Position numbers and translations under genes: made by a program. Below the pieces are notes generated by a model. It was given only the letters and a program-made list of their open reading frames with translations, was not told the DNA's origin and searched no databases. Of a DNA stretch of 37,560 bases, positions 9,832-37,560 are shown piece after piece (within the stretch, counting starts at the first letter, position 1; each line of letters opens with the position of its first letter). The DNA lies in the NCBI RefSeq assembly GCF_026151205.1, contig NW_026971823.1, forward strand, positions 1-37,560, written 5' to 3'. This stretch comes from Bolinopsis microptera. Lineage: Eukaryota; Ctenophora; Tentaculata; Lobata; Bolinopsidae.

Positions 9832-9865
<34 letters not shown>

Positions 9866-11600: not shown

Positions 11601-11604
11601 TCCA

Positions 11605-11638: not shown

Positions 11639-11672
11639 CGCTTGTTCGCCGCGCGTGCTTTTCAGTTCATCA

Positions 11673-11823: not shown

Positions 11824-12134
11824 GACTAAGTTCATTACGATCCTGTATGAATTATTTCAAAATATTCAATATGTTAGAGTTATAGGCATTTTAAGCAATA
11901 GATTACCCATTTTCCGTCCTTTGTACACTCTTGCGATGCACAAAAGGCCATCATACAGCTCGAAGTTATCGTGCTACACGGTGAATTTTCATTATTCACA
12001 CTTAGAGGCAACTTTTGGTACCACATTTATCAAAATCAGAAACAAAAAATTCTGGCCAGCTCATGGCGACTATTACAGATACTATATATTCTATTGAAAC
12101 TGATAACATGATATTCATAACTATTTTACCTTGA

Positions 12135-15100
12135 ATGACCAGACGTTCTGGGCGCTGCTGGTTTACTGTCTGTGGGGGGGCTGGGGGGGCTGGCTGCTGG
12201 TTGATTTCTGGTATAAGAGTAATCTGCTGGGGTCTGGTCTGGGTGTGGTTAGGGAGGTAGAGATCCTGGGCTGGGTCTGGGGGCTGGCTGGCGGGGGTGG
12301 TGAGTGGGGTGGTCTGGGGACTGGCTGGGTCTGTGGGCGCTGCTGGTGAGGGGGGCTGGTCTCATGGTTACTGAGGGGGGCTGTGACTGGGGGGGGGCTG
12401 GGGGGAGGATCTGTCTGGGCTGGGGCTGGGACGTTGACTGGGGGGCTGGGGTCCTGTTCTGCGGGGGGCTGGGGCTGTGGCTGGGGGGGGGGTTCTGGCG
12501 GGAGGCTGCTGGTCTGGGGGGCTGCCTGGGCTGCTGTGCCTGAGAGAGGCTGGTATAAAAGAGGGTGGGTGTGCTGGTTCTGTGGGGGCCTGGGCTGGGG
12601 GGGGATCTTTATGAGCGCTGGGGGGGGGGGGGGGCTGCTGGGCTGGGGGCTGCTGGCTGGAGGGTTCTGGGTGGGGGCTGGGGGCTGGGCTGGTTTCGGA
12701 GCTGGCTGGCTGGAAGGGGTGCTGCTGGGAGAGGGTTCTGGGTTTCGTCTGGCTGGGGGGGGGGCTGAATTCTGGAGTTGTTGTGGAATGGGGAGTTGTG
12801 GTTGCGTGGGTCTGGGCTGGCCGCTGCCTTCTGGGGCTGCGGGGGGGGGAGGGGTCTGTCTGGTGGCTGGGGGGGGGGTCTGGTGGTGGTTTAATTGCTG
12901 GTGCTGGGGTTCTGCGTCTGGGTTCCCCCTGGGTTCTGTGAGGTTCTGCTGCCTGGGGAGGGAGATGCTGCTGGGGGTTTCTGCTGCTGGGGGGGTCTGC
13001 TGGGGGGCTGGGTAGGTCTGGGGTGGGGGGTCTGGGTGCTGGCTGCTGTCTGGGGGGGCTGGCTGGGCTTTTGTTCTGGCTGCTGGGGGGGGGGGTTCTG
13101 CGGGGGTTGCTTGGGTCTGCTGGTTCTGACTGGTTTCTGGGCTGTCGTTTCTGGGGGCTGGGCTGGGGGGGGATGGCTGTCTTGGGGGGTCTGGGTCTCT
13201 GGGCAGCTGGGTGGGTGGGTCTGGGAGTGGCTTGGTTTCTGGGGTTCTGGGGCTGCTGGGCTGGGTTTGCTGGCTGGCTGGCTGGGGTCTGGGGGGTGCT
13301 GGGTCTTGGGGGGGGGGGGTTGTCTTCTGTCTGCGGGCTGGGGTGGTTCTGGGGGATGGGGCTGGGCTGTTCTTTTCTGCGGGGTGGGGGGCTGTGGGGG
13401 GTCTGGCTGGGGGGTTGCTGGTGGAGATATTTGTTTTTCTGGGTGGGGTTTCTGCTGTGATCTGTGTTCTGGGGGGCTGGTTTCTGTCTGTTCTGGTGGG
13501 CTGGGGGGGTTCTGGAGGGCAGGGGGGCTGGGTCGGGTCTTCTGGGGCTGGGGTTTCTGGGGGGGGGGGGTTCTGTGGCCTGTTCTGTATATGGGCGGGT
13601 TCTGCTGGAGTTTTGGGAGGAGATCTGTGTTCTGTTCTGGGGGGCTGTTTTCTGGGATCTGGCTGGGCGGAGGGGGGGGGGGGGGGGGTGGTTTTCTGGG
13701 TTTCTGTGGGGGTTCTGCAAATTCTGTGGCTGTCTGGCACTGGTCTGTAGGGGGAGTCTTGGGGAGGGGGGCTGCTGTCTGGGGGGGGGGCTGGCTGGGG
13801 GGGGGAAGGACTGGCTGGGGTGGGCTGGTCTGGGGGTGGTCTGCTGAGGGTGCTGGGGGGCTGGTGTGGGGACCTGGGTCTGGGGGGGCTGGGGGCTGTG
13901 CTGCTGTAGTTGATTTAGTTTGTTGGGCGGTGGCTGGCTGGGCTGGGGCTTGGGCTTGTGGATCTGGGTCTTCTGGGATGTATGGGTCGGCTGGGGCTGG
14001 GGGGGGGACTGGCACTGGCTGGGCTGTCTGGCTGGTGGGCTGGGGGGCTGCTGGGGACGGGGCTGGTAAATTTGTCTGCTGGGTCCTGGCTGCAGGGGGC
14101 TGTTCTGGGGTGACCTGGCTGTGGGGTGGGGGGGGGCTGGGGGCGTAGGTGTGCTGGGATGGGGGCTGGGGGGAGGTAGGCTGGCCTCTCTGGTGACTGG
14201 GGGGGGGGTGGGGGGGGACTGGGGGCTGGGGCTGGCTGGAGCTGTTCCCTGGCTGCTGGTGGTGGGGGGACTTGGGGTTCTGGGGGGGGGTGGGGCTGGG
14301 CTCCTGTTGAGGTGGGGTCGGGGGGGGGGGCTGGTCTGGGGGTGGGGAGTGTGGGCTACTGGGCTGTGTGGGCTGGGCTGTAGTCTGGGGGTGGGGGGCC
14401 TGGGGGCTGGTCTGGGGGCTGTGTGGGTGGATCTGGGGGCTGGGGGGTCTGGGGTCTTCGTGGGGTGGGAGGGGGGTCTGTTCTGGGGCTGGGGGCTGGG
14501 CTGGCTGGCTTCTTGGGGGACGGGAGGGGGGTTCTGCTGGGCTGGTCTGGGGGGGTGGGACTGGGGGTCTGGGGGTGGGGCTGCGGGGGAGAGCTGGGGG
14601 AGGTCTGGGCTGGAGTTGGTGGGGCTGGGGGGGGGTGCTGGGGTCTGCTGGGGGGAGTGGGCTGGCCCGGTCTTCTGCTGGGTGAGCTGGGCCTGGCTGT
14701 GGGGCTGGGGTAAAGTGGTATGGGTTCTGGGCTGCTGGCTGGGGGGTGGGGGGGGGGTGGCTGGGGCTGTCGTTTGGTTCTGTTGCTGGGGGGGCTCTGG
14801 CTTGGGGGCTGGGGAGGGCCTGGGGGTCTGCTGGGCTGTAGTGGGGTTCAGTCTGTGGTGCTGTGGGGAGGGGCTCTGGGGGGGGGGGCCTGGGCTGGGG
14901 GTTCTGGCTGGGCGGTTCTGGGGAAAGGGGCGAGGGTTTCTCGTCTTGAGGCTGGGGCTGTTCTGGGGGGGGGGTGCGGTTTCTGGGTTCTGCTGCTGCT
15001 GCTGGGTCCTGCTGTCTGGTGGGGGTTTTTGGCTGAGGGATGTTGTTGCTGCTGGGGGACCTGGGGCTGGGGTCTGGCTGGGAGGGGGGGGAGGGGGGCT

Positions 15101-18100
15101 GGGGGGTGCTGGGGGTCTGGTGGGGGGGCTTCTGGGCTGGGGGGGAGTTTCTGTGCGCTGAGTTCTGGGGGGGGAGGAGAGGTGGGGGGGCTGTCTTTCT
15201 GCGGGGTTCTGGGGGTCTGGGTTCTGGGGGCTGTCTGGGGCTGGGTGAATGCGTGGTCGGCTTTCTGGGGGGGGTGGGCTGTCTGCTGGGTTCTCTGGCT
15301 GGGGGTGGGGGGTCTGGGGGGGATAGATAGTGGAGGGGTGAGTTACTGGGGGTTCTGGGGAGGGGCTGAGGGTTCTGTTTCTGCTGGCCTGGATTGGCGC
15401 TGTGGGGGAAGAGCTGCTGCTGAGCTGGGGGCTGGGGGGGGGAGTGTCTGGGGGGGGGTTTCCTGTGGTTGTCTTGCTGGTCTGGCGGGGGGGGGGGGGG
15501 GCTGAGGGGGGGGAGGGGGGACGCGCTGGGGGGCACTTGGGTCTGGGGTCTGGGGCTGAGCCTGTGTGGGGGTGTCTGGGGGGCTGGCTGGGGGGGGGGG
15601 GGGGGGGGGGGTTCGGAATCGTAAAAGTACAGGTGGGGGGCTCTGGCTTCTGGGGCTGGGGGCTGAGGCGCTCTTCATGGGCTCTGCTGGGCTGCTGCTG
15701 TTTTTCTGGATGCTTCTCTTGGGTGGAGTCTGGTCTGGTCTGGGGGGGCTGCTGCTCTGCTGGGTTCTGGTTCTGGCTGGGGGTGGGTCTGCTGGCTTTC
15801 TCTGGAGGGGGGGGGCTGGTCTGCTGTCTGGGGGTCTGGCTGGGGGCTGGGGGGGGGTTGGTCTCTGGGCTGGTGGGGGCTGGGGCTGGTGGCCTGGCTG
15901 CTGGGTGCTGGGGTCTGCTGCTGCTGGGGGCCTCTGCTCTCTGGGGGGGGGCTGGGGGGCTGCTGGGTGGGGGGGGTGGGTCTCTTCGGCTGGCAGTCTG
16001 GGGGGGTCTGTGGGGCTGTCTGCTGAGCTGCTGGGGGCTGGGGTGGGGGGGCGGGTCTGGTTGCTGCTGGGTTTTCTGGGTTGGGGGGGGGGGGCCTGGT
16101 CTGGGGGTCTGGGGGAGCTGGGCTGGCTGGGGCTGTGGGGGGGGGGCTGTGGGTGGGCTGCTGGGGGGGGGCTGCTGGGTGTGGGGCTGGGGGGCCTGGG
16201 TGGCTGGCTTGAGGGGGGGGTTCTGGGGTCTGGGGGGCTTGGGGGGGCTGTCTGTCGGGGGGGCTGTTCTGGTTCTGGGGGGCTCCTGGGGTTCTGGGGG
16301 GTCTGGGTTCTGGCTGCTGGGGGGGGGCTGCGGGGGCTGCTGGGTCTGGGGGGGTGGGCTGGGGTGTGGGTCAGTTCTGGGCTGTTGTGATCTTGGCTCT
16401 GGGCTACTTCGTCTGGTCTGCTGGGAACTGGGGACTTGCGGCTGCTGGCCTGCCTGGTCTCTCGTTGTCTGGGCTGCTGTCTGGTGCCATAAAAGGGGGG
16501 CTGCTGGGAGGGCTCTGCTGCTGTGCTGGCTGCTGGGGGCTTCTGGTCTGGCCTGGGGGGGGGGCTGCTCAGGCTTGGGGGGCTGGGCTTGCTGTAGCGC
16601 GCACTCACATCCAGGGGTCTCTGGGGGGTGGGGGGGTGTTCAGCTGGGGTGGGTGGGGGCGGCTCTGGCTGCTCTGGGGGGGCTGGGCTGTGGGTGTCCT
16701 CATCTGGGTGGGGGTCCTGGGGGGTCTGGGTGCTGATGCTGCTGTGGGGGGTCTGTTCTGCTGGGCTCTGGGTGTGGCAGCTGGTGGGCGGCTGGGGTGG
16801 GGCTGGGGCTTCTGCTTCTGGCTGTCCCCTGGTTCTGGGGGCGGCTGGCTGGTGCTGGTGGCTCTCTGCTGTGCTGGGGGCTGGCTGGGCTCTTGGGGGC
16901 TCTGGGCTGGGGATTCATCAAGTACTCGCTGGGGCTCTGGGGTGGCTATCTGGCTGGCTGCTGCAGGTGGCAGGTCTGGTGCTGGGGGGGTGGTGGGTGG
17001 CTGCTGGCTGTTTCTCTGGTCTCTGTGGCTCTGGGGCTTCTCTGGGGTTCTGTTCTCTGGGCTGGTGGGGGGGGGGGGGCTGGGGGGGGGTTCTGCGGTG
17101 GCTGCTGGTGGCTCTTGTTCGTGTTCTTCTGGGGGTACTGGGCTGGGGGCTGGCTGGTCTCTGGAGGGTCCTGGGCTGGGGGCTGGTCTTGAGGTGGGCC
17201 TGGCTGCTCCTGGGGTGGCTGGCTGTTGCTGGGCTGTGGGGGGGCTTCTGACGTTGTGGCGGCTGGGGGCTCCGGCTCTGCTATGGGTCCTCTGCTGCTG
17301 TCTCTGCTGGGGGGCGGCTGCTTCTGGGGGGCTGGCTGACTGGGGCTCTGGGGCTGGGGGCTGTGGGCTGGCTGCTGCTGGCTGGTCCTGGGTTCTCTGG
17401 GTCTGCTTCTTCTGAGCTGCTTCTCTGGGGTGGGGGCTGTCTTGCTGTGCTGGGACTGGGCTGCTGTGGGCTGGCTGCTGGGGGTTCTGGGCTAGGGTGC
17501 TCTGGGGGTCCATGGCTGGCCTGCTGGCTGTGGTGGGGGTCTGGCTATGGCTGGGCTGGGCTGGTGCTGCTGTGAGCTGCTGCTTGGGCTGGGGGGGGGT
17601 CGGGTCTGGAGCTGGGGTGGGCGTGGCGGCTGGGGGGGTTGGGGGGCTGTCTTCCTGCTCTTTGCTTCTCTTCTGGTCTGGTCTTGGGGGTGCTTGGCTG
17701 GTGGGGCTGGGCTGCTCTGGGTGTGGCTGGGGCTGCTGGCACACACTGGGGCTCTGATGGGGGGTCTGCAGCCTTGGGGATCTGGGACTTGGCTCCTTTG
17801 GGGGCTGGTCCTGGTGGGGCTGGCACTGGTGTGGGCCTGGCTGGGCTTGCTGGGGGGGGGGCTGGCTTGTGGTCTGGGGGGGGGGGCTGGCTGCTGGGGG
17901 GCTGGCTGGGGTGTTCTGTGCTCTGGGGCTCTGGGCTGCTGCTGGGGCTTCTGGGGGCTGGGGTGCTGTGGGGGCTGGGGGGCTGGCTGGCTGGTGGCTG
18001 CTGCTGCCAGGCTGGGCACTGGGGGCTCTGCTCTGCTGGACTGGCTGTCGGGGGCTGCTGCTCTCTGGGGTGAGGCTGTGGGGCTGGTTCTGTGGTTCTG

Positions 18101-21100
18101 GGGTCTCTGGGGGTAAGTAAGTGGTGGGAGGGAGGGATCTTCGGGCTGGGGCTGGGGCTGGGGGCTGGGGTCTGTGTCTGGGGTGGGCTGGGGGCTTGGG
18201 ACTGGGGTCTGCTCTTCTGGGGGGGGGCTGGGGGTGGGGCTGGGGGCTGTGAGTGGTTGGGGGTTCCTGGGCTGCTGGGGGGCTGCTCTTGCTGGCTGGG
18301 GGGCTGGCTCTGCTGCTGGCTGGCTATCTGCTGCTGCTGGGGGCTCTGGGCTGGGGACTGGCTCTCTCTGGCTGTTCTCTGCTGTTCTGGGCTGCTCCTG
18401 GGGTCTGGGCTGGGGGGGGGCTGGCTGTCTGTCTGGTTCTGCTGGGGTGGGGCTGTGCTGGACGGGTGGGCTGGCTGGCTGTGGTGCTGGCTGGGGGCAG
18501 CTGGCTGCTGGGGCTGGCTGGTGTTCTGCGCTGCTGGGGGCTGGGGGGCTGCCTTGCTGGGCTCTCGGGGGCTCTGGGACTGGGGATGGGCTCTCTGCTG
18601 GGGGGCTGCTGCGGCTGCTGGGCTGTGGGGCTGGCGTGCTGGGGGTTTCTGGGTCTGCTGTTCTGGGGGGGTTGCTGTCTGGGGGGCTGGCATGGGCTGG
18701 CTGGGGGGGGGGGGCAAATTCAGTCGGCCGAGCTGCTGGCTGGCTGGCTGGGCTGGGTGTTGCTGGGGGCCCTGTCTCTCCTCTGGGGGGGATGAGCAAG
18801 ATCGGGTAGGGGCTGGGGTGGGGGCGTGGCTGCTGCTCTCTGGGGTCCTCGAACCGGGGGGGGGGGGGCTGGGCTCGCTTCTGGGGGCTGGAGGGGCTGT
18901 CTTCTGGGGGGCTCCGTGTTCTGCTCTCTCGGGGTGGCTTGGGGTCTGGCTGGGCTGGCTCTGGCTGGCTGGGCTGCTCGTGCTGGCTGCTGGGCTCTGC
19001 TGGTCTGCTGGCTTGGGGGGGGGCTGGGGTCTGGGGGAGGGTGCATCTGGGCGTCTGGGGGGTCTCTTGGGCTCTGGTGGGGGGGGGGGGCTGGCTGGCT
19101 GGACTGGGGGCTCTTGGGGGGGCTGGGGGCTGAGCTAGGGCTCTGTGGGCTGGGCTAGGGGGGGCTGGGGGGGGAGCTGGGGGGGGGGTCTGTTCTAAAT
19201 CAACTGAGACCTCCCCGCTAGCGACCGCGACTAGACTGCAGAGGGGGGGCCTGCTCTGGCTGGTGGCTGGGGGAAGGTTGCTGTCTGGGCCTGGGCTCTG
19301 CTGTTCTGGTGGGGGGGGCTGGGCTGGGTTCTCTCTGCCTTTGGGCTGCTGTCTGGCTGTCTGCTGGCTGGGGGGTCTCCTGGGGGTCTGGGGGTTCTTT
19401 GCTGGCTGCTCCTGGGCTGGGCTTCTGGGTTCTGGGGCTTGGGGCTGGCTTTTCTGCTGTCTGGGCTGGGAGGGCGGGGGTCTGGGGGCTGGGGGGGGCT
19501 GCTCTGCTGGTGGGGGGCTCTGGGGCTTGGGTGCGGCTCGGGGGGGGGGGGTGGGGGGCTGGGCTTCTTTCTGCTGGGCTGCGGGTCTGGTTGGGCTGCT
19601 GGGGTTCTTGGTCTTGTCTGTTCTGGGCTCTGCGATCTGTCTGTTCTGGTGGGCTGGGGCTGCTGTCTGCTCTCTTCTGGTGGGACACTGGCTGCTGCTG
19701 GGGGGGCTGGCTGGGGGGGCTGGGGTTTCTGGGATGGGGGGTGCTGGGCTGGTTTCTGTTCTGCTGGGGGGGTCTCTGGTGGTTCGTGCTGGGGGGAGTC
19801 TGGGCTGGGGGGCGGGCGGGGGGGGGGGGCTGGGGGCTGCCTCTCTGCTTGGCTGGCTGGCTGCTGGGAAGTCTGCTTCTGGGGCTGGGCTGGCTGGCTG
19901 GGCTGGGGTGCTGGGGGGCTGCTTGTCGGCTGGCTCTCTCTGGGCTGGGTGCTGCGGTTCTGGTGGGGGGGCCTGGGCTGGGCCTCTGTTTCTGTTCATG
20001 AGTGCTTTCGTGGGGGCTGGGCTGGGGCTTGGTGGGGGGGGCTGCAGGTCTGGGGCTGGGGGGGGGGGGCTGGCTGGGGGGGGGGCTGCGCTGGCTGGCC
20101 TCTGCTTGTGCCTGGGCTGCTCTGGGGCTGTCTGGTCTGGGGGGGCTGGGGTCTGGGCTGGGGCTGGGGGGGGTGGGCCGCTGGGCTGCTGTCCTCTCTC
20201 TTCTCGCTGCTGGGGGGGCTGTGTCTGGGGGCTGGGGGGCTGGCTGCTGGCTGGCTGTCTTGGGGTGGCTCTGCTGGGGGTCTCTCGTGGGGGGCTGGCT
20301 GGGGCTGAGCTGTTCTGCTGGCTGTCTGGGGCTGGGCCTGCGTCTGGGCTGCTGGGGGCTCTGGCTGGGCTCTCTCTCTGCTGGGGATGGGGGGGCTGCT
20401 GGGCCTGGGCTGGGGGGTTCTGGGGCTCGCTTGACCGGGGGCTCTCTGCTGCTGGGCGTCTGGTGGGTTCTGGCTGGGGGCGGCTGGGTGGCGGCGGTCG
20501 GGTGGGAGGGTGGCTGCTGGGGGCTGGGGGCTGTTCTGATCTCTGCTGCAGGTTTGGGTGTCTGTGTGGGGCGTGGGGTGGATGGGGCTGTCTGCTCTCT
20601 TTCTGGGGGCTGTTCTGGGGTCTTCTGGCGCTGCTGGGGGGGGTTTCATCTGGCTGGGGGCTGCTGCTGCTGGTCTGGGGCTGGGCTGGGGCTGGTTGCT
20701 GCTGGGGGGGGGGCTGGAGGGGGGGTGGGGGGGTCTGGCTGGGGGGGGGGGGGGGGCGGGGCTGGGCTGCTGGGTGTCTGTTCCTGGTGGGTTCTCTGGG
20801 CTGGGCTCTCTGGCTGGGCTGGGCCTTCTGGCTGGGGGGGTGGGGTGGCTGTGCTGGGGGGGGTCTGGTCTGGCTGGGTCTGCTGGCTGGTGGCTGGCTC
20901 TGGCTGCGGCTTGGGCTGGCTGTGGGGCTGGGGCTAGGCATGGGCTGGGGGGCTGGTTTCTGCTCTCTGGCTGGGCTGGGGGGCTGCTGCTGGGGGGGGC
21001 TGGTCGGGGTTTTCTGGCTCTGCTGGTCTCTCTGGGGGCCCCTTGGCTGGGGCTGGGGGTCTGCTAGGCTGCTGGCTCTGGCTCTGGGGGCTGGGGCTTC

Positions 21101-22690
21101 TCTCTGGCTGCTGGGGGAGGGGTCGGGGGGCTGGGGGGGGGTGCCACAGCATAAGGACATTTCTCTGACGTTCCTGGCTGCTAGCTTGGGGGCTCTGGGT
21201 TCTTGGGCTCTCGTGGGGGGCTGCTGGGCTGTCTGGGTGGCTCTGCTGGGCTCTGCTGGCTCTGTGGGGGTGCTGGCTCTGGCTCTCTGTCTGGGGGGGG
21301 GGGGCGGGGGCTGCTGGGGTCGGGGCTGGGTGGGCTTTCGCTGGCTGGTGGTTCCTGCTGGTCTGTCTGGGGGGGGCTGCTCTGGGGGGTGGTTGCTGTG
21401 GGGCTGGGGTCTGCTGGGTGGGCTGGCTGGGCCTGCTTGGGCTGCCTGCTGGCTGGGCTGGGTCTGGGGGGGGGGGCTGGGCGGGGCTGGTCTGGCTCTG
21501 GGGGGGGGCTCTGGGGCTCTGGGCTCTGGGGGAGGTGGCTGGGTCTGGGCTGGATCTGCTCTGGGGGGGCGGGGGGGGCTGGGCTGGCTCTGGGGCTGCT
21601 GGCTGCTGTGTCTGGGGGGCTGGGGGCTGGCTCTGGGCTGGGGGTCCTGCTGGCTGGGGCTGGGGCGGGGCGGGCTGGGCGGCTCTCTGGTGGGCTGAAT
21701 GGGGGGGGGGCTGCTCTGGGCTGTCTGCTGTGGGGCTGGGGGGAGGGCTGGGCTGGATGGCTGGGTGGGGGCTGCTGAGGTCTGCTGCTGGGGAGCTGGC
21801 TGCTCTGCTCTGCTGGGCTCTGGCTGGGGTTCTCTCTGGGGTCTGTGGGCTGGGGCATCTGCTGTCTGCCTGGCTGAGGGTCTGTCTGGGCTGGTGCTGC
21901 TGGGGGCTGGGCTGGGGGCTTTCTGGCTGGGGTGGCTTGGTCTGGGGGGCTGCTGTGCTGGGGGGGGGCGGCTCTTCGTGCTCTCTGGGCTCTGGCTCTG
22001 CTGCTGGGGGCTTGTGTGCTCGGCTTGCTTTCTGCTGGCTCTGGGGCTCTGTGGCTTGCTGGCTTGGCTCTGGCTGCTGCCTGGTCTCTTCCTGTGGGGG
22101 CTGGGGGGGGCTGGGCTCTGGGGGGTGGCTTGTCTGCTGGGCTGGGGGGGGCTGTCTGCTTGGGCCTGGACGATAGATGGGGGGCTGGGTCTGGTGTGCT
22201 GGGGGCTGGGTCTGGCTCTTGGGCTGGGGGGCGTGGGCTGGCTGGTGGGCTGGCTGGGGCTGGGGCTGGGGAGGGGGGGGTGGAGGCTGCTGGTGGTGCT
22301 GGGGGGAGGGGGAGGGCTGTGGCTCTCTGGCTGTTCTCTTGTTTTTCTGGGGGCTGCTGTCTGGGGGGGGGGGGCTGGGGGCTGTGCTGTGCTGCTGCTC
22401 TGGGGCTGCTGGCGTGGCCAATCACTTGATCTGGCTTGGTCTGCTGGGGGGGCTGCTGGGGGTGGTTCTGGGCTGCTGGACCTGCTCTCTCTGGCTGGGG
22501 GGGCTTGGGCTGCTGGGTCTGGGGTCTGGGCTGGGAGCTCTGGCTTGCTGTGGGGGGTTCTCTTGGGGGGGTCTGCTGGTACCTCTCTGCTCTCTGGTGC
22601 TCTGCTGGTGGCTGCTTCTGCTGTGCTGCTTCGTGCCTGGCTGTGCTCTGTGGCTGCTCTGCCTGCGCTGTCTCTGCTGTGGCTGCTCTG
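12135..22690. repeat. Low-complexity domain A: G-runs joined by CTGG
   Basis: The unique AT-rich sequence stops at about 12135-12170. The plus strand then becomes runs of G separated by CTGG, CTGCTGG, TCTGG or GGCT steps of irregular length, not a fixed tandem unit. A is nearly absent: by hand count 15 A in the 600 bases from 13021 to 13620. Long open frames on both strands, including one of 2275 codons on minus (starting at 24319), follow from this composition because every stop codon needs both A and T. G-quadruplex and R-loop potential is high on the plus strand. No gene is recognisable. Confidence 0.85.
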
Positions 22691-24770
22691 CTCCCTGCTC
22701 TGGTTTGCCTTCTTTTTTCTGTCTCTTGCCGCCCTATTGTCTTTTCTCTTTTGTTTCCTGTGCCCCTTGTGCTGTGTCCCTTGTTGACCCTGTGCCCTTT
22801 CCTTTCCTCTTGTGTGCTGTTTGCACTCTGTCTGCTTGCTGTCTCCCCCCTGCTTGCTCTCCTCCTTGTGTTCTTTGTTTTTCCATGTTCCTTCTTTTTC
22901 CTCTTCCTGCTGGTGTCCTGTGCTGCCTCCTTGCCCCCCTTTGCCCCCTTTTTTTTCCCTTCTGTGCTGTGTTTTGGCCTCCCCTGCTCTTCTCCTCTTG
23001 CCTGCTCTTGCCCTGTCTTTCCCCCTCTTGTGTTGTTGTCCCTGCTGCTGTGCCTTGCTTGTTGCTGATTCTTGTCTTTGCCCCTGGTGCCCTCTTGCTC
23101 CCCTTGCCCCTGCCTCCTCCCCCCTCCCTTGTATTTCATGCTGTTGTTGCTTTGTGGCTCTGTTCCCTGTCCCCCTGTGTGCTGCTTTTTTTTTCCTTGG
23201 CCTGCTTGTTTCCTGCTGTGTCTGCTGTCCTGGACTCTCTTGCGTGTGCTTTGCCTTTCCCCTGTTGCCCCTGCTTTTCCTGTTTCTGCTGCTGCTGGCT
23301 TCTTGTATGCCTTTTCCTCCCTGTGTCTGCCTTGTTTTTTTGTTCTCTGCTGCTTTGTTTGGCCCTGTGTTGTTTCCTGTGCTTACTGCTTGTGTTGTTC
23401 CTTTTGCCTGCTTGTTTGCTGTTCTTTGTTCTTCCTGCCTCCCCGCTACTGTGCTGTGTCTTCTGCTTGCTTCCCTTGTGTGCTGTTGCTTGCCCTCTTG
23501 TGGCTGTGCTTGCCCTGTGCTTTGCTTGTCTCTTTTTCTGCCTCTTTCCCTGCTCCCTCTTCTCCCCCGGTATTTGTGTTTTGCTTTTCTTGTTTTTCTT
23601 TGCTTCTTTGTGTGTTGTTTTTGCTTTTGTGTGTCTTTTTTTGCTGCTTTGTGCCCTCCTCCCTTGCCTTGCCCCCTCTCCCCTGTCTGTTGCCTTTTGT
23701 GTTTCAGTCCCCTGCTCCCCTCCACCTCTGCTGTGCTATTTCCCTGTCCCTGCTTGTTTGCCTTTGTCTGTTTTGTGATTTTTTTTCTTTGCTTGTCTGT
23801 ATTATGCCTGCCCTGCCCCTCCCCTGGGTTTGTTTGTGTTGGTTGCTTCTTGTGTCTCTCTTGACCTTCCCTCTGTTTTGTTGTTCCTTTTGCTGGTTCT
23901 GCCTGCTTTTTCTGCTCTCTTTCCCTGCCCTGCTTCTCCTCTGGCTCTGTGTGCCCCTCCCTGTGTCTCTTTGTCTTAGTTTTTCTCTTGCCTGGGTCTG
24001 TTTGCTTGTGGCCTTCCTGATGTCCTTGACCTTCCTTCCCTGCCTTGTGCCCCTGCTTCCTCTGTTCTTTGCCCTGTGTCTTTGCTTCTGTGCCCTCTTC
24101 CTGTTCTCTCTGGTCCTGCTGGCATGTTGCTTGGTGTCCTCTCTCCTGTGTTGTTGCTCCTGCCTGCCCTGTCTTGCTTGTTTGTGCTGCTTCTGTTTGC
24201 ATGCATGTGACCTCCTGCCCTGCCTTCTTCCCTGGTGCCTCCCCTCCCTGCTCTTCTCTTGCCCTTGTCGCCCCTGCTGCTTTCGTCTTTTTTCCTGCTT
24301 TTTTTGTTGCCTGCTTCACCCTGCTGCTCCTCCCTTTTTTGTCCCTGGCTCCTTTCTTGCTGTGTGGTGATGCTGCTCTTCTCCTGCCTGTGCTCCCTTT
24401 TTTCTCTCTTTGCCTGCGCCTCCTGCTGTGCCTCTTTTGTTCTTGCCCCTGCTCCTCTCTGCCTCTGTGTTGCTTCTCCTTTCCCCTGTGCCTGCCTGTG
24501 GGTCTGTTTCCTCTGTGGTCCTGCCTTGTGCCCTTGTGCCTGCCCCTGTTTCCTGCTTGTGTTGTTGCCTCTTTCTTCCTGTGTGTCCTTGCTGTTTTTG
24601 CTGCTTGTTGTTTGCTTTCTGCTGCCTGTGCCCCTGTCTTTCTCTTTTTTTTCTCTTGCTGCCCCTGTTGCTCTGTATCTGTGTCCCCTCTTCTGCCTCC
24701 TTCCTCCTGTTGTGTGCTCCTGTCTTTTTTTTTTTTTTTCCTCCTGTTCCCCCTTGTGTTCCCCTAGATT
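22690..24770. repeat. Low-complexity domain B: C/T-rich with GTG and CTGC steps
   Basis: From about 22690 the G-runs fade and the plus strand becomes pyrimidine-rich (TGCCCCTTGTGC, CTGCTTGCTT and similar). A stays almost absent: 5 A in 23041-23340 by hand count. The change is gradual over some 200 bases at the left, and fairly sharp at about 24770 (after a T13-14 tract and CCCCTAGATTGG). Confidence 0.8.
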
Positions 24771-25700
24771 GGGCCCTGCCTTTGTCCCTGTTGCTGCTGT
24801 TTTGGGGGGGTTTTTTTTTTTTTTTTGGGTTTTGGTTGTTGGGGGGGGGGGTTTTCTGTGTGTGTGGGGTTTTTTTTTGGTTGGTCTTTGTTTTTCTTTG
24901 GGTGGGTTGGGTCTGTTCTGGGGGGTTGGTGGGTTTTGGGGTTTGTTTCTGGTTTGGGTTTGTTGGTTCTTTGGTGTGTTTGGTTGGCTGTTGTGGGACT
25001 TTTTGGGTGGGTGTGTTTCTGTGTTTGTTGGTTGGTTGCTGGTCTGGTCTTGTTGTGTTTGTTTCTGTCTGGGGTGGTGGTGTTTGTTCTTGGCTGTCTG
25101 TGGTCTGGGTCTGCTTGTGGTCTTGTGTGGTGCTGTTGTGCTTCTGGTCTGTTCTTGGTTTTGGGGTTGTTTGTTCTGTTCTGTGGGTTTGTCTGTTTGG
25201 GTGTGTGGTTTGTGGTTGGGGCGTCTTTGTTCTTTGTGCTGTGTTTGGTGTGCTGGGGTTCTGTTCTGGGGTTGGTGTGGTTTTGGGCTGGTTTTTGGGT
25301 GCTTTCTGTTGGTGGTTCTGTCTTGTTTCTGGTGTTCTGTTGGTGTCTCTGGGGTGTTTGGTGGTTGGTCTGCTTTGTTGTCTTGTTGGGTGTGTTCTGG
25401 GTGGTGTGGGTTGTGGGTGTCTGGGTGTGTCTGTGTGCTTGTCTTTGTTTTTGTGTCTGTCTGGTCTGTTGGTGGCTTGGGCTGGTGGTGGTGGGTTTCT
25501 GTGTGGGGTTTGGGTCTGTTGGTGTGGCTTGTTGGGTTGCTCTTGTTTGCTGCTGTGTGTGTGTCTGTTGTGGGCTGTTGGTTGTTCTGTGTGGTCTGGT
25601 TGTGTGGTCTTGGCTGGCTTTTTCTGTTGTTGTGTCTGTTCTGGGTGTGTGTGCTGTCCTGGTCTTGGGTGTCTGGGCTGACCTGGTCCTGGGTCTGCTG
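24770..25700. repeat. Low-complexity domain C: G/T-rich
   Basis: The domain opens with alternating T- and G-homopolymers at about 24803-24900 (T-runs of ten or more, then G11), followed by irregular TTGG, TGTTCTGG and GTGTGT steps. C is much reduced compared with domain B and A is still very rare. There is no coding content. Confidence 0.8.
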
Positions 25701-28700
25701 GTCCTGTGCTGTGTGTGGGGTCCTCTGCTGGGGGGGCTGGGGGGGGCTGGTGTGTCTGGTCCGTCTGGGTGGCTGGTGTCTTCTGGGTCTGGGTCCGGCT
25801 GTGTGGTGTTGGGCTGCTGTGTCTGCCTGGGGTGGGTGCTGGTCTGGCTGTGCTGTGGCGGGCCCCCCTGGGGACTGGGGGCGTGCCTGGTCACCTGCGG
25901 TCTGGTGCAGTCTGGCTGCCTGCCTGGGGGGGGGGGTGGTGTGGGGGTGGTGGGGTGGGTCTGCGTTCCTGGTGGGGTGTGGTGCTGCTGGCTGTGCTGG
26001 TCTGGTGTCTGGTGGGTGGCTGGCAGGGCGTCTGGCCTTGGGTCCCCTGGGTGTGTGGTGGTGTCCACTGCTGGGGTCCCTATTGGCTGACCCTGGGTGT
26101 CTGGGCCTGTCCTGTCCTGGAGGTGGGTGGAGTGCTGTCTGCTGTGTCTGCTGTAGGTGAGGGGGGGTATAGGGGGGCCTGTGCTGTGGTCTGCCATGGA
26201 CTGGGGGCCTGTGGGCCCTCTGGGGGTGGCAGTGTGCTGCTTGTGGGGCACTGCTGGGCTGTGGCTGCTGTGGGTCTGGTGGCTGGCTGTCTGTGTGTCT
26301 GGGTCTGCATGGTGTCCTGCTGAGGCTGGGGTGGGGGCGGCTGTTGGCGCTGGTCTCTCTGGTCCTGGACTGCATATTGTCTGGTGGTGTCTGTGGGCCT
26401 GGGTGTCTGTGGCTGTGGCTGCTGTGGTGGGGGGTTCCCCCCCCCCCCCTGTCTGGGGGTCCTTGGGGGGTCTGGGGTGGTGTTCCTGGCCTGGTGGGGG
26501 TTTTGTGGGCTGAGGGGGTGGTTGGGGGTCTGACTGGGTGTGGGGTGGTCAGGCTGTTGGTCTGGGTCTGGGCAGGGGGTTCTGCTGGGGTGGGTGCTGG
26601 GGGGGTTGGCTGCTGTCTGGTCTGTGGGTGGGTGGCGTCTGTGGTGAGGTCTGACTGTGGGGGCCTGCTGGTCTGGTGGGTGCGTCTGAGTGGTGTGGCT
26701 GCTGTGAGAGCACCGTCTGGGGCTGGTTGGCTGGTCAGGGGGGGTGGGTGGTCTGTGGGTCGGTTCTGGTGTGTCTGGGGGGGTGGGTGGTCTGGCTGTC
26801 CTGTCTGGCTGCTGTGCCCCTGGGGTGTCTTGTGGTGGGTGTCTGGCTGGGGGCTGCTGGCTGTCTGGGGCCCTGCTAGGCTGTGGTGTGGCTGTGGGAT
26901 CTGTGGGGTGGGACCGTCTTTGATGGGGCCTGGGCTGCGACAGTGTCCTTCTGCGTCTGCCTGTCCTGCTGGGCTGTGCTGTGTTGTGGGACTGCTTAGT
27001 CCCTGGTTGCCGCCTGGTGCCTGTGGGGTCTGTGGGGTCTGGCTGCGCGGTCTGGCTGGGGGGTCCTGGGGGGTCTGTGCAGTCTGTGGTGCTGGCAGTG
27101 TCCTGGGCTGTCTGGCTGCTGCTGTGTGGCTGGGCTGGGCCTGTCTGGGGAGTTGGCCCTGTGTACTGGGGTCCCGTGGCGTCTAGTGTGGCTGTGTCTG
27201 AGGGGTCTGACTGGGTGAGGGTCTGGTCCTGGGGTGGGTCTGCGTTGGAGCTGTGTTGGTCTGCTGTGCTGGGGTGGGGGGTTTCACCCCACCCCCAGGG
27301 TGTGGCCGTCTGTGAGCTGTCTGGTCCTGTAGGGCGCCTGGGGGTGTGGGGAACTGGTGTGGCTGGTGTCTGGAGCAGTCTGCTGGGGTGTAGGGTGGGT
27401 GAGTTGGGGGGGGGGGTGGTCTGGGGCCGCGTCCTGTCTGTCCTGTGTGGGCTGTGGGTGATTTGTGGGGGAGGGGGTGACTCTGGTGGTGGTCTGGCTG
27501 GGTGTGCCTGGGGGTCTGTCTGGGGCAGGCCCCCTGGCTGTGGGGGGGGTTGTTGGGCCGGCTGTCTGGCTGAGGCCGGGTGCTGTGCCTGGCTGTGTCT
27601 GACTGTGGGGGCCCTGTCTGGGTCTGCTGCTGGTGCTGGGTGTGGGCTGGTGGGTCTGTCTGCTGGGCAGGGTGGGGTGGGAGTCTGGGGGCCAGCCTGG
27701 GTCCTGTGGTCTGGGCTACCTGGGTCTGGACGTCTGCCGTCTGTTAGGTGGGTGTCTAGAGGGACTGTGGTCTGTGTCTGGTCTGCTGGATCTGTCAGAG
27801 AGCGGGTGTGTGGTCCTGTGCTGGGGTCCCCCAGTCCTGCCCTGGGCTGACTGTGGTGCGGTCTGTGCTGCTGTGCTGGTGTCTGTGCAGTGTTCCTGAT
27901 TCCCCCCTGGTGGGGTCTGTGCTGTGGCGGGTTGGGGGGTCCCTGGGGCCCTGTCTGGTGCCATAGTGTGGTGGTGTGTGTGCGGTGGTCTGAGTTGGGG
28001 CCTGCCCTGCTGGGGTGACCAGTCCTGTGGTCTGCCCTGTCTGGGGGGGGGCTGGTTGGGGTGGCTGGGGGGGGCCGTCTGCTGTGCTGCTTTGTGTCTG
28101 TGGCTGCTGGTGGTGGGGGGGTGGTCTGACCCCCCCTGAGGGGGGCTGGTGAGTGGCTCTGGGCTGGGGGGGCAGTCTGTTGGTGTTCTGGACTGCCAGC
28201 TGTCCTGTTGTGGTCCCCCTGGGCTGTGTGGGGCCTGCAGGGGTGCAGGGTCTGTGTGCTGGTGTCCAGGGGGCTGTCCCTGGCCCTGGGCCTGGCTGGG
28301 TCCTGCTGGGGTCCTGTCTGCAGTCTGCAGTCTGCGGAACCTGTGCTGGACCTGGGGGGGGGTGTGACCGTCAGCGTCCCTGAATGGTGTCCTGGTCCTG
28401 GTCTAGGCTGGGCTGTTCTGGGGCCTGGTGGGGGTGGCTGGGCCAGATGTGTGGGCTGGGTGTGACCTGGTGGTACCCTGCCTGGCCTGGAGCCCAGCTG
28501 TTGTGGGCTGCCCTGTGGGTGGCTGCTGGCCCCCTGGGTGGCCTGTCTGTGGTCTGTGGCGGGGCGTCTGTGTCCTGGGTGGTGGACTTGGTGGCTGGTC
28601 TGGCCTGGTGGCGTCCTGGTGAGGTGCCTGCAGGTGTCTGGGCTGTCCCCTGTGTCTGCTGGGTCAGATGGCGTCGGTTCTGGTGGTTGTCTGGGGGTAT

Positions 28701-31700
28701 GAATGCGGGTGGAGGTGCTGAGCCGTGTGGGGTGTGTGTGGGGTGTGGGGCAGTAGGGGTTGTCTGGAGTCTGTGGTCTGTCCCTGTCCCCCTGTATGTC
28801 TGTGTTGCCTGGGTCTGGGGGTCTGTGTGTGAAGAGGGACGTCTGGGGGGGGTGGGTGTGTGGTGGGGGGGGGTGCGTAGTGGCTGTCCCCCTTGGTGGG
28901 ATCCTGTCTTGCAGGTGAGGGGGGGGCTTGTGTTGGGGCGTCTGGGTGGTGTGTGGGTGTGTGCCTGGGTAGGTGAGTGTGAAAGTGGGGTGTGTGTGTT
29001 CTGGTCTGAGGGGGCACCCCCACCCCCCCCCCCACCCCTGGGATGGGGACTTGGGGTCCCTGGAGGTCCTGGTGGGGTAGTCTGATGGTGTGTGCCTGTG
29101 GCTGATTGTGATGTGGGTGAGAGCTGCATGGGGTCCATGGTGGCCTGCTGGTGTGGTTTGGGTGGGTGTTGTGGGTGGGTTACAGTGAGTCTCGGGGCTC
29201 AGTTGTGCTGGGCACTGGTCTGGATCCGCCTGTGGTGTTACCAAGAGTTGGCTGTCCTGCTGGTGGGGGTTGTGTGGTCCTGGGTCTGGTCCTGTCTGGG
29301 GTGGGTCTGGGGGGGGTGCTGTCTGGCTGTAGGACTGGACTGTTGTCCTGTCTGTCTAGGGTGGGGTTGGTACTGGGAGGGAAGTCCCCCTGTAGTCCTT
29401 TCTGGGTCAGTGTGCTGTACCAGTTGGAGCACCTCCAGGCTAGTGTCCTGGCTGCATGTTCTGGCTGGGGGGAGGTGGTGGGCCTGGGCTGTGGTGGATC
29501 TGGAGGACGTGGTGTCTGTGGTGTGCTGGCTGGAGTACTGGTGGTGGGGCGTACAACTTGCTGTGCCAGTCGTTGGTGGGGTGTGGGGTGGAGGATCTGC
29601 CTGAGTGGTCATGTGGACTGTGGCTGTGGGGTCTGCCTGGTCTGGTGGTGGACGGCTGTGGTTTTGCATGGGGATGGTTTGGCGATTCTGGTGGGATAAG
29701 GAGTGCTGGGTCTGTGTGTGGTGTGTTGGCTGCCCTGGATTGGGGAGAACGACTGCTTGGGGTGGGGTCTGTGAATCCCTGTGTTGAAGTGGACTGGGTG
29801 TGTCTGTGGAGTCTGTGTGCTGGTGGGGCTGTCAGGGGCTGTGGTCTGTGGAGGGGTGCTGTGGAGGTAACCCTGGGTGGTCTGTCCTGGTGCCCTGCCC
29901 TGGGCTGAGGTCCTGGGGATGTGTACTTGCTGGGGGGTCCTGGGGAAGGTGTTGGTACCCCTTGTGTCCTGGGGGCCTGGCTGGTGTCTGGGAGTGTCTG
30001 ACATGGGGGGGCAGGGTCCCCCTGTGTAGTGGTCCTGCTGGAGTCTGTGTGTGGCCTGTCCTGGTGGACTGCTGGTGGCTGGGTTGTCTGTGTCCAGGCC
30101 TGCTGGGGGGGAGGTGGTGCTGGTTGAGTGTCTGGTGGCTCTGTCCCCCCTGTGGTCTGGTGGTGGTGACTGTGTTGGGTCTGCTGTGGGGGTGGGTCTG
30201 AGTGTCTGGGTGGGGTCTTTGTGCCCTGTGGGGTGGTCTGGGGCCTGTAGTTGCGGTATGAGGACTGGCCCCTGGGGGGGTGTGAGCCCTGTCCCCTGGG
30301 CCTGGCTGGGCGTGGGGGTGGGACCTGTCGTGTGATGGTGGGTGGGTGTGGTCTCTGCCAGGCGTCTGTGTCTCTGAGGGAGTCTGCTGGGGGTGTGGGT
30401 GGTGGGGATGGCCTGTGTGTCCTGTAGGGCTGGTGGGTCAGGTCTGGGGGGGAGGGTCTGTTGTGCTGGGCATACCGTCCTGGTCTGGAGGTGGGCCTGG
30501 GCCGTCGGGTGGGGGTGACTGGGATGGGCCCTGGGTGGTGGGTGCTGGGTGTCCTGGTGGTCCTAGGTGTCTTTGTGGGGTGGCAGCTGTGGGGTTCCTA
30601 TGGGGCTGGTCCTGTGTGTGGGCTGACTCCTGAGCAGGCTGGCCTGGGGCTGGCTGGCCCTGCTGCCCTGTGTGTGTGTTGGGTCCTGTACTGGCCCTGT
30701 GAGCTGTGCTGGGGTGTGTGGGGCTGTGGTGGGCTGGTCTGGGGCTGGCGTCTGCTGTCTGAGGTGGTGGGTCTGGTCTGCGTCTAGTCTGGGGCTGTGG
30801 CTGGTGTCTGTCCTGTGGTGGTGTCTGTGGTCTGAATCTGTGCTGGGGGTGGGGTGCGGAGGGCCCCCACCCCCCCTTTATGGGGTGGGTGGGGTTTGGG
30901 GCTGGAGTGTGGACCTCCTGGGGCTGGGTGGTGTGTGTGGGTGCCTGGCCTGCGACCTGTGGGTGGGGCTGGTGCTGGTGTGGTGTCTGGGTAGGTGCTA
31001 GATTGGTGCGGGTGCCGTCTGGTGTGTGTCCCTAGTGATGAGGGCAGGGATCTGTGAGGTCCCTGCCCTGGGTGGGTGGGAGAGTGGTCTGTCCTGTGGC
31101 TGTGGTGGCCTGGGGGGGGTGGGCTGGTGGTGTGGCCCTGGGGGGGTGATGGGGCTGGTGGTCTGTCTGTGGGGTCCTGGGCAGGGGTGGGCTGTGGGGG
31201 GGGTGAGTGTTGCTGGTGTGATCTGGTCTGTGGGTCTGTCTGGTGTGGTCGGGGAGGTGGGCGGGGGGGCCCTAGTGTGGATTTCTGGGGTCTGTGGTGT
31301 GTGGTCCCTGGCTGGGTGGCTGGTGGTGTTGGGTGGGTGGGTGTGCTGGGCCCCTGTGTGGTGTGGTTGTGGGGGGGGGTGGGGTTCCTGCTGGGTAATA
31401 TGGGGGTGATTCTGGCAGAGAGTGTGGGGCTGTGTGAGCTGGTCCTGTGGATCCTGTGCCTATCCAGCCTGGTCTGTGGCTGGGGTGGGTGCTGTCTGGG
31501 TGGTCTGGGGGGGTCTGCCTGGGATGTCCTGGGTGTGCTGGGTCTGTGGTCTGCTGGCTGGGGCTGCTGTGGTGGGGGAAGCTGCTGGCCTGGTGTGTTT
31601 GGGGTGAGGGGTGGTTCGTCTAGGGGGGGGGTCTGTGGTGGTGTGGGCTGCGCCTGGGTGGTCTGCTGTCAGGTCTGGGGTGTGGGCTGGGTGGCTGGGT

Positions 31701-33170
31701 GAGTTGGCCTGATGGGGTTGTGTGTGTGCTGAAGGGAGGGTCTGTGGTCTGCCTGCTGTGTGAGGCTGGTCTGGTGTGTGGTTTGTGTCCTGGTGGTATT
31801 TCCTGGTCTGGGGTGTGTCTGCAGGTGTGAGGTGGGGCGTCTGGGTCCTGTCTGGTCTGGGGTGGGAGGCCTTGGGTCTGTGGGGGTGGAGCTGAGGGTC
31901 TGTGGCTGTGCTGCAGCCACCCCCCCACTGTGGGCCCGCCCTGGGGTGTCTGTCTGGTCTGGACTGGGGTGTGTGGTCCTTTTGATGGGTCCAATCAGTG
32001 GGGTGGCTGGGTCCTGCTGAATTGGTTGTTGTCCTGTGGCTGGGGGGTGTGAGTCACCAGCCTGGACTGTGTGTGGGGGGTCCAGAGGCAGAGCTGTGGC
32101 CGTCTGGCTGGATGGTGTCTGTGCTGTGTGTGGGTCTGTGGGCCTGTCATGCCTGGTCTGTGATGTGACTGGCACCGTCTGTGGTAGTAGTGTGGGTGCT
32201 GTCTGTGGGAGTGTGTGAGTGAGGGGGTTACGGTGTCTGCTGAGTGCTGACTGTGTTGGGGGGCTTGGGGGTGGGGTATAAGCCCTGGGGGGTGTGGAGT
32301 GATCTGGGAGGGTAGCTGGTGGGGTGGTGGTCTGGAGCCGACGGGTCTGTGTGGCGGGGGGCTGAGGGGGGCTGCTGGGGCTGAAGGTCTGCTGTGCCTG
32401 GGTGGAATGGGTGCCTGTGGAGTGTCTGGGGTGCGGGGGGGTCTGGGGTGGCTGCTGTGGTGTCTGGCCGTAGCTGTGTGTGACAGGTCTGGTGTTGTGG
32501 ACTGTGGGGTGTCCGGTTCTGGTGGTGTGTGGTCCTGCTGGCCTGATGGTCTTGGCTGGGCCTGGGTTGGAAGGGGGTGTGGTTCTGTTCTGTCTAGCTG
32601 TCTGGTGGGCTGGACCTGCTAGGGTGGGGTAAGCTGTCTGGGGTTGGCTGTGGGTCTGACCTGCAGGCTGGGGAACACGTCTGTGGAAGGGGTTAAGGGG
32701 CTTGTTGGTTCCTGAGTGGCTGTCTGGGCTGTCTCTGGGCCTGAGTGGCTGGTGGGTGTGGGGGGGATCCCTGGCCTGCTGTGGGGGTCTGTGAGCTGGT
32801 CTGCGTGTTAGCGTCTGGGCCCAAGAGGCCTGGTGGTTGTGTTGAAGACTGTTCTGGGGTCCGGGCGTCTGGGGGGCAGTCCTGGCTGTGTGGGTCTGTG
32901 GGATCTGCCTGGTCTGGTGCCTGGTTAGCCTGGTCTGTGGTGCTGGGGGTGCTTGTGGTGAGTAGAAACCGTCTAGGCTGCGTGTGGTCTGGGTGGCCTG
33001 TTGCCTGGTGGTGGGGGGGTTCTGTCAGTGCCTGGTCCCTGGATGGTGGGTTGGGGGTGGGGGCTGAGTGTGTGTGCTGGGTCTGGATGTGGGTCTGCTG
33101 CTTGGTGGGGGGTGGCTGGTGGGGTTGTGTCACATGTTGGTGCTGCTTGGTGTCTGGCGTCTGTGGGAGA
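25700..33170. repeat. Low-complexity domain D: GTCTGGGG-type with local C-run foldbacks
   Basis: The plus strand is a mixture of GTCTGTGGGG, GGTCCTGG and GTGTGG steps with slightly more A and C than domain A. C-runs appear here, mostly just after a G-run, giving short foldbacks (for example 27271-27295 and 30845-30874). There is no fixed unit and no gene. Confidence 0.75.
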
Positions 33171-36150
33171 GTTTAGGCAATTTACCACCCCCCCCAATAC
33201 CAGTTTTGACCAAGGGTGGATTAGGGAGTCATGTGGGAAGCTTGATTGGTATGTTGTACAGCTACATGGTAGGTTGATAGCCTCATGCTGGGGTGATGTG
33301 AGGACATGTAGGTTGGCTGGGGTTGTTCTTATGACAGGGCTTAGGACCTGTGTGGCTGAACCGTCTTGGGGTGGGGCTGGGTGCGTGTCAGAAGCTGGGG
33401 TCCTAGTGGCCCTGTGGGGGTTTTTGTGGGCTGTGGCTGTGTCCTGCTGGGTGCTGTGTGGGTGTCCCTGTGGCTGGTAGGCTGTCTGGGGTGCTTGCTG
33501 TCTGTGTGAGTCCTGTGAGGCTGTGGGTGCTGGGCAGTGCGGACTGAGGGGTTGCAGGGCTGCCCTGGGGGTATGGCGTATGGGTGTTTAGGCGTTTGAG
33601 CTCTCCCAATAGTATTAGAGGTTGGCCAGAGGAGCCAGCCATATGAGGCACCCTGGTGTGATAGGTGTGGGGTTGACAGGGTTGGAGCAGCTAGTCCAGT
33701 GACCTGGAGGGACATATCAAGGGTGAGTTATGAGACCTGTTTGGGGCTGTGCCAGACCGAGTGTTGGTGGGAGTGCAGCCTGGCCGGCTGTTCAGGGTAT
33801 GTTGGCCTGGTGCCTGTGGTGGGCCAGTGTGGGTTGTTCAGGTCAGGGTGGAGTGGCAGGTGGGGGGGCTGTGCTGCCCAGTTGACTGATTGGTACCTGC
33901 AGGTGCTGTCAGGGTGTGGGCTGTCCAGGGCCTGGTCTGGTAGTTTGTCTGGTCTGGGCCTGGGGTGGGGTGGCTAGGGTGGCTGTGTGGTCCTGGTGGC
34001 TTGTGGAGGGTGGCCCAGGCCTGTGCTGGGGGGAGTGGGCTTGTCTGGGGTTTTGGCTGCCCTGCCCTGATTGTGGGGTGTGGGTGGGTATGTCACAGGG
34101 CTCCTGGTGCTGGGGTCTGGGAGGAGCCCTGGTGTTGGCTTGTCCTGGTGCTGTGGAGGGGTATGGCGGTGTGGTCCTGATAGTGGTGGTGGTGTTGGCA
34201 CTGTGGGTCTAGTGCGGCGTCTGTCTGCTGGTGGTGTTACTGCTGGTGGGTGTGGTGCTGGAGAGCAGGCTGGAGTGTCAGTGTTTAGGATGTCTGTCCT
34301 GTGGTTACTTGTGCTGCTGGTAGCTGTGGATTGCCCTGACTGGTAGGGAGTCCTCCTGGTGTTGGGTGGTCCCAGGCTGTGGGTGCTGGAGTGTCCCGTG
34401 CTGCTCTGGGAGGGGTGGCTGGTGACCGTCCTTGCTGGGGGGTGGGTGACTGCTGTGGTGGCTGGGTCTGGGCTGGGGGGTGAGGTGACTGGACATGTGA
34501 CTGGGGGGTGTGTGACTGTGTTGCTGTGTGGGGGGTGCTGTCCTGCCTGGGGTGCGTGGTGTGGGTGCTGGTGGTCCCTTGTCTGGGGCCCCTGGAGTCT
34601 GGTTGGTCGTCAGTGTGGGGGGGGCTGGGTGGTGTGTGGCTGACCTGGGGTGGGTTACCCCTGTGGGGGGTGAGGGGTGTGAGTGTTTGTGACTGTGTTT
34701 GGCTGTTGTGTCTGTGGGTTCTGGTGTCCTGCTGAGCTCTGGGGGTGGTCCTGGCTGGGGCTCTTGGGCCTGCAGTGTGTGGGGCAGGTGCTGGGTGTCT
34801 TGGGACCTGGCGTCTGGAGGGGTGGGTGTGCTGGAGGCATGTGTTCAGTGTCTGGCAGAGTGTGGGTGTTTGGGGGGGGTGCTGTGCTGTGCCCTGGGGT
34901 GAGCTGTGGGGTGGTCTGGGGCTGCAGAATGCAGCAACCGACTGGTGTTGGCTGTGGACCGTTCTGTACTGGGGGTAGGAAAAAAACAAAGCCGTCTGGG
35001 TCTGGTGTGCCCTGGGGTCAGCCCCAGGTGTGGATGTGGTGGTGATGTGGGTGGTGTGGCCTGGAGGAGGGTGGGGGGGAGTCTGGTGGTGGGGGGGGGG
35101 GGGGGTCTGTGGTCTGGTCTGGGCTGTGTGGGGGGGGGCTGGTGCTGGTTGGTGTGGGCCTCCTTGTGTGGGGGCCTGGGGTGTGCTGGCTGGAGTCTGC
35201 TGGCTGGGTGTGGGTGGGGCTCTTGTGGTGCCCTGGGTGTCAGGGGGTGTCTGTGGGTGGCTGGTGGTGGGTGCATGGTCCCCTGGCCTGGATTGTCGTC
35301 AGGGGTGGGTGCTTGGTCTGTGGTGTGGTGTGGCCCTGTTGTCGGTCCCCTGTGGTCCTGCCAGTTGCCCTGGCTGGGGTGGGCTGTGGTCTGGAGTGTG
35401 GGGGGTTGGGTTGTGGGGGAGCCTGGGCCCTCGTCTGTGTGGTTGCTTTGGGTCCTGGGGTGGGGCTGTTGGGTGCCCCTTACTGGGGGGATCTGCTGCC
35501 CCTGGGCCTGGTCTGGTTGGCTGTCTGTGGGGCCCTGAGCAATGTTGTGGGTCCGGGGTGGGGTCTGTGGCTGGGTGTGCCTGTGGTCCCTGGCTGTGTG
35601 GTCTCCACTGGTGTGTCCTGGGGCTGATTGTGTGACTGAGGGGCTGTGTCCCCTTGAGCTGGCTGTGGTGGGGTGTGGGTGTGTGGGTTTGATCCTGTGG
35701 GGTGGGTGCCTGAGTGGTTTGGTGCCATGGGAGCAGGCTGTGTGTTACCTGGAAAAAAAAAAACCGGTCTGTTGGGAGTGGGTGGCTGTGCTGGAGCGGT
35801 GCCTGGGGGGGAGTGTGTGTGCCCTGTTGCTGGTCAGTGAGGGGGTGGTCTGGCTGAGTGCCTGGGCCCTTGGTGCTTGTCTGTCTGCTGATGCCTGGTG
35901 GCATGGAGTGGCCCTGTGTGGTGGCCTGGGGGGGGGGGGGGTGGGGGGGGGTGGGGTCTCGGGGGGTGGGGTCTGCTGGGGGGAGGGGGGGGGGCGTCTG
36001 TGGTGGGGTGGTGGTGGTTGTGGCTGGGGGGTGCCAGGGCTGCTGCTTGGTGCTGTGTGCTTGGGTGGGGTGTGTCTGGGCTGTGGTCCTCTGGGGTGTG
36101 GCCTGGCTGGGAGGGTCCTGGTCTGTGTCTGGCTCCTGTGTGCCTGAGTC
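33171..36150. repeat. Low-complexity domain E: as D, with A-containing islands
   Basis: The G-rich GTGTCTGG style continues, but islands of more ordinary sequence occur at about 33171-33360 and 33590-33740, with shorter ones near 34925-34995 (including A7) and 35750-35763 (A11). I found no open frame with a recognisable domain and no transposon end in these islands. Confidence 0.6.
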
Positions 36151-37450: not shown

Positions 37451-37560
37451 TTGTGCTTTTTTGGTGTGTGGTGTGGCGTGTCGGTTGGTTTTTTTGGTTT
37501 GTTGGTTTTGGTTTTTTTGGGGTTTGGGTTTTGGGGGGGGTTTTTGGGGGTTTTTGGGGT
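37451..37560. repeat. Terminal T-run/G-run alternation at the window end
   Basis: The last 110 bases, and especially 37520-37560, alternate T-runs of 3 to 7 with G-runs of 3 to 8. The pattern continues past the window edge. Confidence 0.75.

Follow-up and report, generated by a model that had tools for sequence, protein, structure and literature searches.

Long wrong calls at the end of a normal read have been described for nanopore sequencing, where low-quality segments follow an inverted duplicate (Spealman et al. 2020, PMC7229812). These segments have a known trigger, and the portion of that report considered here describes no loss of one base. A second related case are unpurged haplotigs, small contigs whose real part duplicates a chromosomal locus, as treated in the portion of the Purge Haplotigs paper drawn on here (PMC6267036). 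The window studied by us is the whole of one such small contig (C64, 37,560 nt) from the 264,652,675-base assembly of Bolinopsis microptera (232 contigs, the last of them 10,124 bases long). Thirteen contigs of this assembly are chromosome-sized (C1 with 26.2 Mb, C13 with 16.35 Mb; C14 has only 198 kb; for C6–C11 the size follows from matches located beyond 15 Mb), and Table 1 of PMC11797021 gives 265 Mb, 13 chromosomes, a largest one of 26.2 Mb and 346 scaffolds, the 232 contigs perhaps lacking the shorter ones. Like the nanopore segments, the long A-poor block in C64 begins with an abrupt passage from normal sequence to calls unlike the template. However, one base is nearly lost, the reads most likely came from PacBio CLR sequencing, and filtered BLAST (E 1) found no inverted copy of the preceding left arm on either strand of the block, which is weak evidence in noise. 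In contrast to usual unpurged haplotigs, C64 appears to be alignable over about one third of its length only and to carry a noise tail. We found no title or abstract describing A-less noise of this type; PMC10234299, in the portion considered, concerns HiFi gaps. With a probability of about 90% we regard the block as an ordinary artefact, sequencer noise rather than a real feature of the genome.

The initial annotation had noted that two thirds of the window lack A almost completely on the plus strand, and base counts bear this out: positions 12135–37560 contain 4.2% A (1062/25,426), 18.6% C, 46.7% G and 30.5% T, as compared with 30.8% A in the left arm. Its hand counts of 15 A in 600 bases at 13021–13620 and 5 in 300 at 23041–23340 are exact. 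A-free runs extend to 682 bases within the block; in the left arm none exceeds 58. A is unevenly scarce, with 14.2% in the richest 500-base bin (at 33151). Composition changes at about 22420, 24825, 25675 and 36170, and A stays at or below 6.3% in every segment (Table 1). Stop codons need A, or T on the other strand, the base that the block lacks there, and this explains 12 open reading frames of at least 500 aa (up to 2275 aa); three of these 12 were scanned and gave no Pfam family at E 0.01. The suspicion that an artefact had generated false long proteins thus fits, the lengths being those expected from A-short sequence. G4 motifs are numerous on the plus strand of the block (146 without overlap); nonetheless, the proposed giant G-rich strand with G-quadruplex and R-loop potential has nothing beyond composition behind it. 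A telomere at the contig end, where the last 60 bases are G and T only, was rejected as unspecific, since the interior of the block has a comparable patch of G and T only, at about 24800–24850.

Table 1. Segments of the 37,560-nt contig C64 (base composition in % of the plus strand)
Segment	Start	End	Strand	Description
Left arm, first part	34	10018	+	Ordinary DNA, collinear with C13 from C13:7873405, 86% identical overall
Left arm, near-identical part	10533	12053	+	Matches C13 from 7883619 on
Final homology, unpolished-looking	12054	12150	+	12 differences in 99 columns; substitutions are mixed with gains and losses of single bases
Junction	12150	12150		C13 homology ends at C13:7885229; ordinary DNA continues on C13
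Regime 1 (probable noise)	12150	22419	+	A 3.4, C 18.1, G 52.2, T 26.4
Regime 2 (probable noise)	22420	24824	+	A 1.6, C 31.7, G 21.6, T 45.2; C/T-rich
Regime 3 (probable noise)	24825	25674	+	A 0.1, C 9.5, G 40.9, T 49.4
Regime 4 (probable noise)	25675	36169	+	A 6.3, C 18.1, G 46.9, T 28.6; A-richer island at about 33150–33900
Regime 5 (probable noise)	36170	37560	+	A 0.6, C 8.4, G 52.2, T 38.8; reaches contig end

The left 12 kb are genuine genomic DNA, a divergent allele or a duplicate of C13:7873405–7885229. Homology to C13 stops at 12150 and not at 12135, where the block had been thought to begin, and accuracy is already lower from 12054. Positions 11001–12150 match C13:7884083–7885229 at 98%, with the match ending at the junction. 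Differences amount to 12 in 403 columns at 10533–10932, beside C runs, and to 5 in 1,123 columns at 10933–12053, as against the far denser differences of the final homologous stretch (Fisher p 1.9e-10); a coarser count gave 11 differences in 102 columns for 12033–12132. This 12% difference could in principle be allelic, as substitution levels of 4–32% per 500 bases occur elsewhere in the left arm. Past 7885229, C13 has a balanced composition with 29–34% A per kb over the adjoining stretch examined, whereas C64 ends inside the block, the noise reaching its last base.

Compared with C13, the left arm is a mosaic, for which gene conversion, a switch between haplotypes or chimerism of the contig may be responsible: substitutions per 500 bases range from 0% to about 32%, near-identical stretches (0–0.6%) lie at 5501–6500 and 10501–12000, divergent ones (4–32%) at 1–5500 and 6501–10000 with about 32% at 6501–7000, and 10001–10500 aligns poorly (48%). 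The 3.3 kb at 6501–9800 are nearer to C13:7813939–7817191 (92%) than to their collinear place on C13 (79%) and have, among the matches listed, at least 17 relatives of 84–92% identity, 12 on C13 and the rest on C4, C5, C9 and C12. They include, at 9003–9569 (+), a partial gene for a rhodopsin-type receptor (7tm_1, E 3.4e-11) in short open reading frames and no single frame. At 3808–5254 (+) lie retroelement remains in which one open reading frame encodes reverse transcriptase (E 2.4e-20) and another RNase H (E 4.1e-17); arrays of a 10-base unit adjoin them at 3068–3824. A 263-base repeat at 990–1252 has at least 12 copies of 100% identity on C1, C2, C3, C7, C8 and C10; this family is very young or strongly homogenised. 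C runs occur in ordinary DNA at 5692–5720, 9832–9863, 10530–10582 and 10931–10955 (25–32 bases pure, one of 53 interrupted); elsewhere in the assembly, the first 43 bases of C40 are all C. A dispersed repeat with inverted-repeat structure at 11590–12088 stops about 60 bases short of the junction and might have contributed to the failure of the read; the assembly search with 11001–12200 yielded 783 candidate places, of which 40 were scored, with 166 matching pieces.

The alternative that survives best is that one haplotype truly carries an inserted G-rich, A-poor array at C13:7885229, the unit of which was blurred by bad reading. The genome does hold such arrays, one on C2 and another at C5:22171880–22175310 (A about 7%, G about 63%), a minisatellite with a unit of about 33–35 bases that is likely a genuine G4-rich locus and shares with the block the G-rich, A-poor plus strand and CTGGGG-like words. 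For each segment we compared the longest exact repeat with 20 Markov simulations of order 2 and order 4 trained on that segment. Regime 1 showed 25 bases against means of 24.9 (order-2) and 25.6 (order-4), and regime 4 showed 19 against 19.5 and 19.6; with order-2 means in brackets, the values were 15 (15.4), 15 (14.3) and 17 (17.5) for regimes 2, 3 and 5, where the order-4 simulations agreed too. In contrast, the C5 array, used as a control, contains an exact repeat of 355 bases (simulated 21 and 32), while within any one regime of the block none exceeds 25; ordinary C13 DNA contains one of 99 (simulated 14 and 20). A control array on C2 consisting mostly of G runs was scarcely apart from its simulations (76 vs means of 57 and 48, maxima 93 and 70), so that the test is poor for homopolymer tracts. 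The repeat content of the block is that of a low-order Markov generator without duplication history.

Smoothed autocorrelation, which covered regimes 1, 2, 4 and 5, revealed no period: the excess was at most 0.0081 at 12200–22600 and 0.0062 at 25650–36140 as compared with 0.077 for the C5 array. Both values lie at the upper edge of the simulations, reached by 1 of 30 in each case, which we attribute to composition drift. A C5-type array corrupted with 34% simulated error still retained an excess of 0.012–0.020 near lag 35. Regimes 2 and 5 gave 0.0127 and 0.0122, but both are short stretches in which simulations often did as well (16 of 30 and 8 of 30, respectively). Tandem Repeats Finder reported only short arrays in the block, with a best score of 156 among the 150 of 174 rows listed, whereas a noisy tandem array at C66:35001–36000 (unit about 70 bases) scored 628; noise of the ordinary type thus does not mask arrays. 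This C66 array is apparently unpolished and lies less than 2 kb from its contig end. A satellite or minisatellite is rejected on the autocorrelation and exact-repeat tests, in both of which the C5 control stands out, and the earlier remark that the block lacks a fixed repeat unit holds, neither autocorrelation nor shared-word checks giving a clear period or unit.

Similar blocks elsewhere were also looked for in the assembly, as the initial annotation had proposed. Regime 1 (query 15001–17000) gave 40 matches of 65–82% identity to G-rich stretches on C2, C3, C5, C6, C8, C9 and C11, and also to C64 itself at three further places. This low-level similarity to chromosomal G-rich stretches would suit a real array, but we read it as shared composition. 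The regime 2 query (22701–24780) matched only itself, and 26501–29000 matched itself and one stretch of C64; the search skips simple repeats and missed the own place of 15001–17000, so that absent matches are weak evidence. The A-richer island (about 33155–33900) was considered as genuine DNA and rejected, the sole match found in the assembly being its own place. Since the C/T-rich regime 2 is almost A-free as well, and in view of the repeat tests, we consider a blurred array very unlikely.

A-less tails were not seen on other small contigs: none of 18 stretches near their tails, 7 of which reach the last base, was alike, the lowest A content being 18% (the C66 array), and none of the 60-base starts of 20 contigs, 6 of them chromosomes, resembles the block. 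A-less noise is therefore no general fault of this assembly, judging from the tails sampled. Contig C45 measures exactly 40,000 bases and looks like a software cut.

Real DNA past the junction with G in place of A, through hypermutation or systematic miscalling, would agree with the sum of A and G, which is 50.9% in the block and 51.1% in the left arm with T and C little changed. However, with A collapsed to G, the base after C is G in only 10% and 15% of cases and T in 84% and 55% for the two long regimes, as compared with 49% G and 29% T for ordinary DNA. A collapsed alignment of the first 500 bases with the C13 continuation scored 83.5, within the range of 66 controls (mean 66.4, sd 19.2, maximum 113), and alignments anchored directly after the junction were equalled by 427, 1098 and 2115 of 3000 random places for 25, 40 and 60 bases, respectively. 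Such a conversion is thus highly improbable. That the block is a corrupted version of what C13 carries past the junction was rejected too, none of these alignments rising above controls. We see an equally slight chance that one haplotype carries at C13:7885229 a real, non-repetitive insertion of more than 25 kb with almost no A on its G-rich strand, with its composition in blocks and not built by duplication; if true, this would be a new kind of non-repetitive, one-base-depleted DNA. Contaminants are common on small unplaced contigs, but contaminant or mobile-element DNA of odd composition has hardly any probability left here, as the left arm is host chromosome, 26000–33900 (the sole part tried) matched none of 72,556 plasmid and 50,697 phage records with the low-complexity filter on, and the three long open reading frames scanned lack a Pfam match.

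Of the two readings originally offered for the block, the artefact has held up and the real giant strand has not: the C13 flank continues normally, the last 97 bases before the junction are inaccurate, the contig ends inside the block and its repeats are those of a random generator. Most likely, one or more error-prone long reads ended in low-quality calls, and this unpolished tail entered the consensus at the end of a small leftover contig. The platform, the cause at read level, the history of polishing and purging, and why A in particular was lost are what we infer in the following. At about 12,150, the read would have ceased to report its template, and the base caller would have emitted calls almost without A until the contig end, the balance of C, G and T drifting between stretches while one base channel stayed nearly silent. 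As A is lost whatever this balance, a cause in the read-out is suggested rather than one in the sequence. On the PacBio Sequel, bases are told apart by colour and brightness, and a shift in signal level could lose one base. According to the portion of PMC10232365 considered, PacBio CLR, HiFi or Iso-Seq libraries were run on the Sequel II for three sequenced species, and the Bolinopsis microptera assembly was built with wtdbg 2.4, TGS-Gapcloser, Purge Haplotigs and pilon with Illumina reads. The use of wtdbg points to PacBio CLR as the data type behind this assembly and most likely behind the noise tail.

The polishing and purging steps may also account for the junction and for the survival of the contig. 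Short reads would be unmappable in the block and polishing would halt about one short-read length before the junction, which may be why the low-accuracy stretch is about as long as one short read. With noise making up two thirds of C64, the default of 70% alignment given in the portion of the Purge Haplotigs paper considered (PMC6267036) would be out of reach, and the contig probably escaped purging because the part alignable to C13 does not exceed about 12.15 kb of the 37.56 kb (32%). It counts against an artefact that the assembler wtdbg2 normally wants several supporting reads per path, so that 25 kb should not arise from a single bad read. However, wtdbg2 compresses homopolymers, and compressed words common to noise stretches may give false overlaps of unrelated bad reads: 343 of 5,179 homopolymer-compressed 17-mers of regime 1 recur in regime 4 as compared with 4 of 6,749 between two ordinary loci.

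Taken as the artefact that it most likely is, the block is a quality warning: 25 kb of noise stand in a public animal assembly and should be trimmed. Such noise yields false long open reading frames, false G-quadruplex density and false low-complexity content. A noise tail can be flagged without raw reads by four cues, namely a second copy of the locus that is free of the block, a drop in accuracy before the junction, Markov-like repeat content, and one base that is missing throughout switches in composition.
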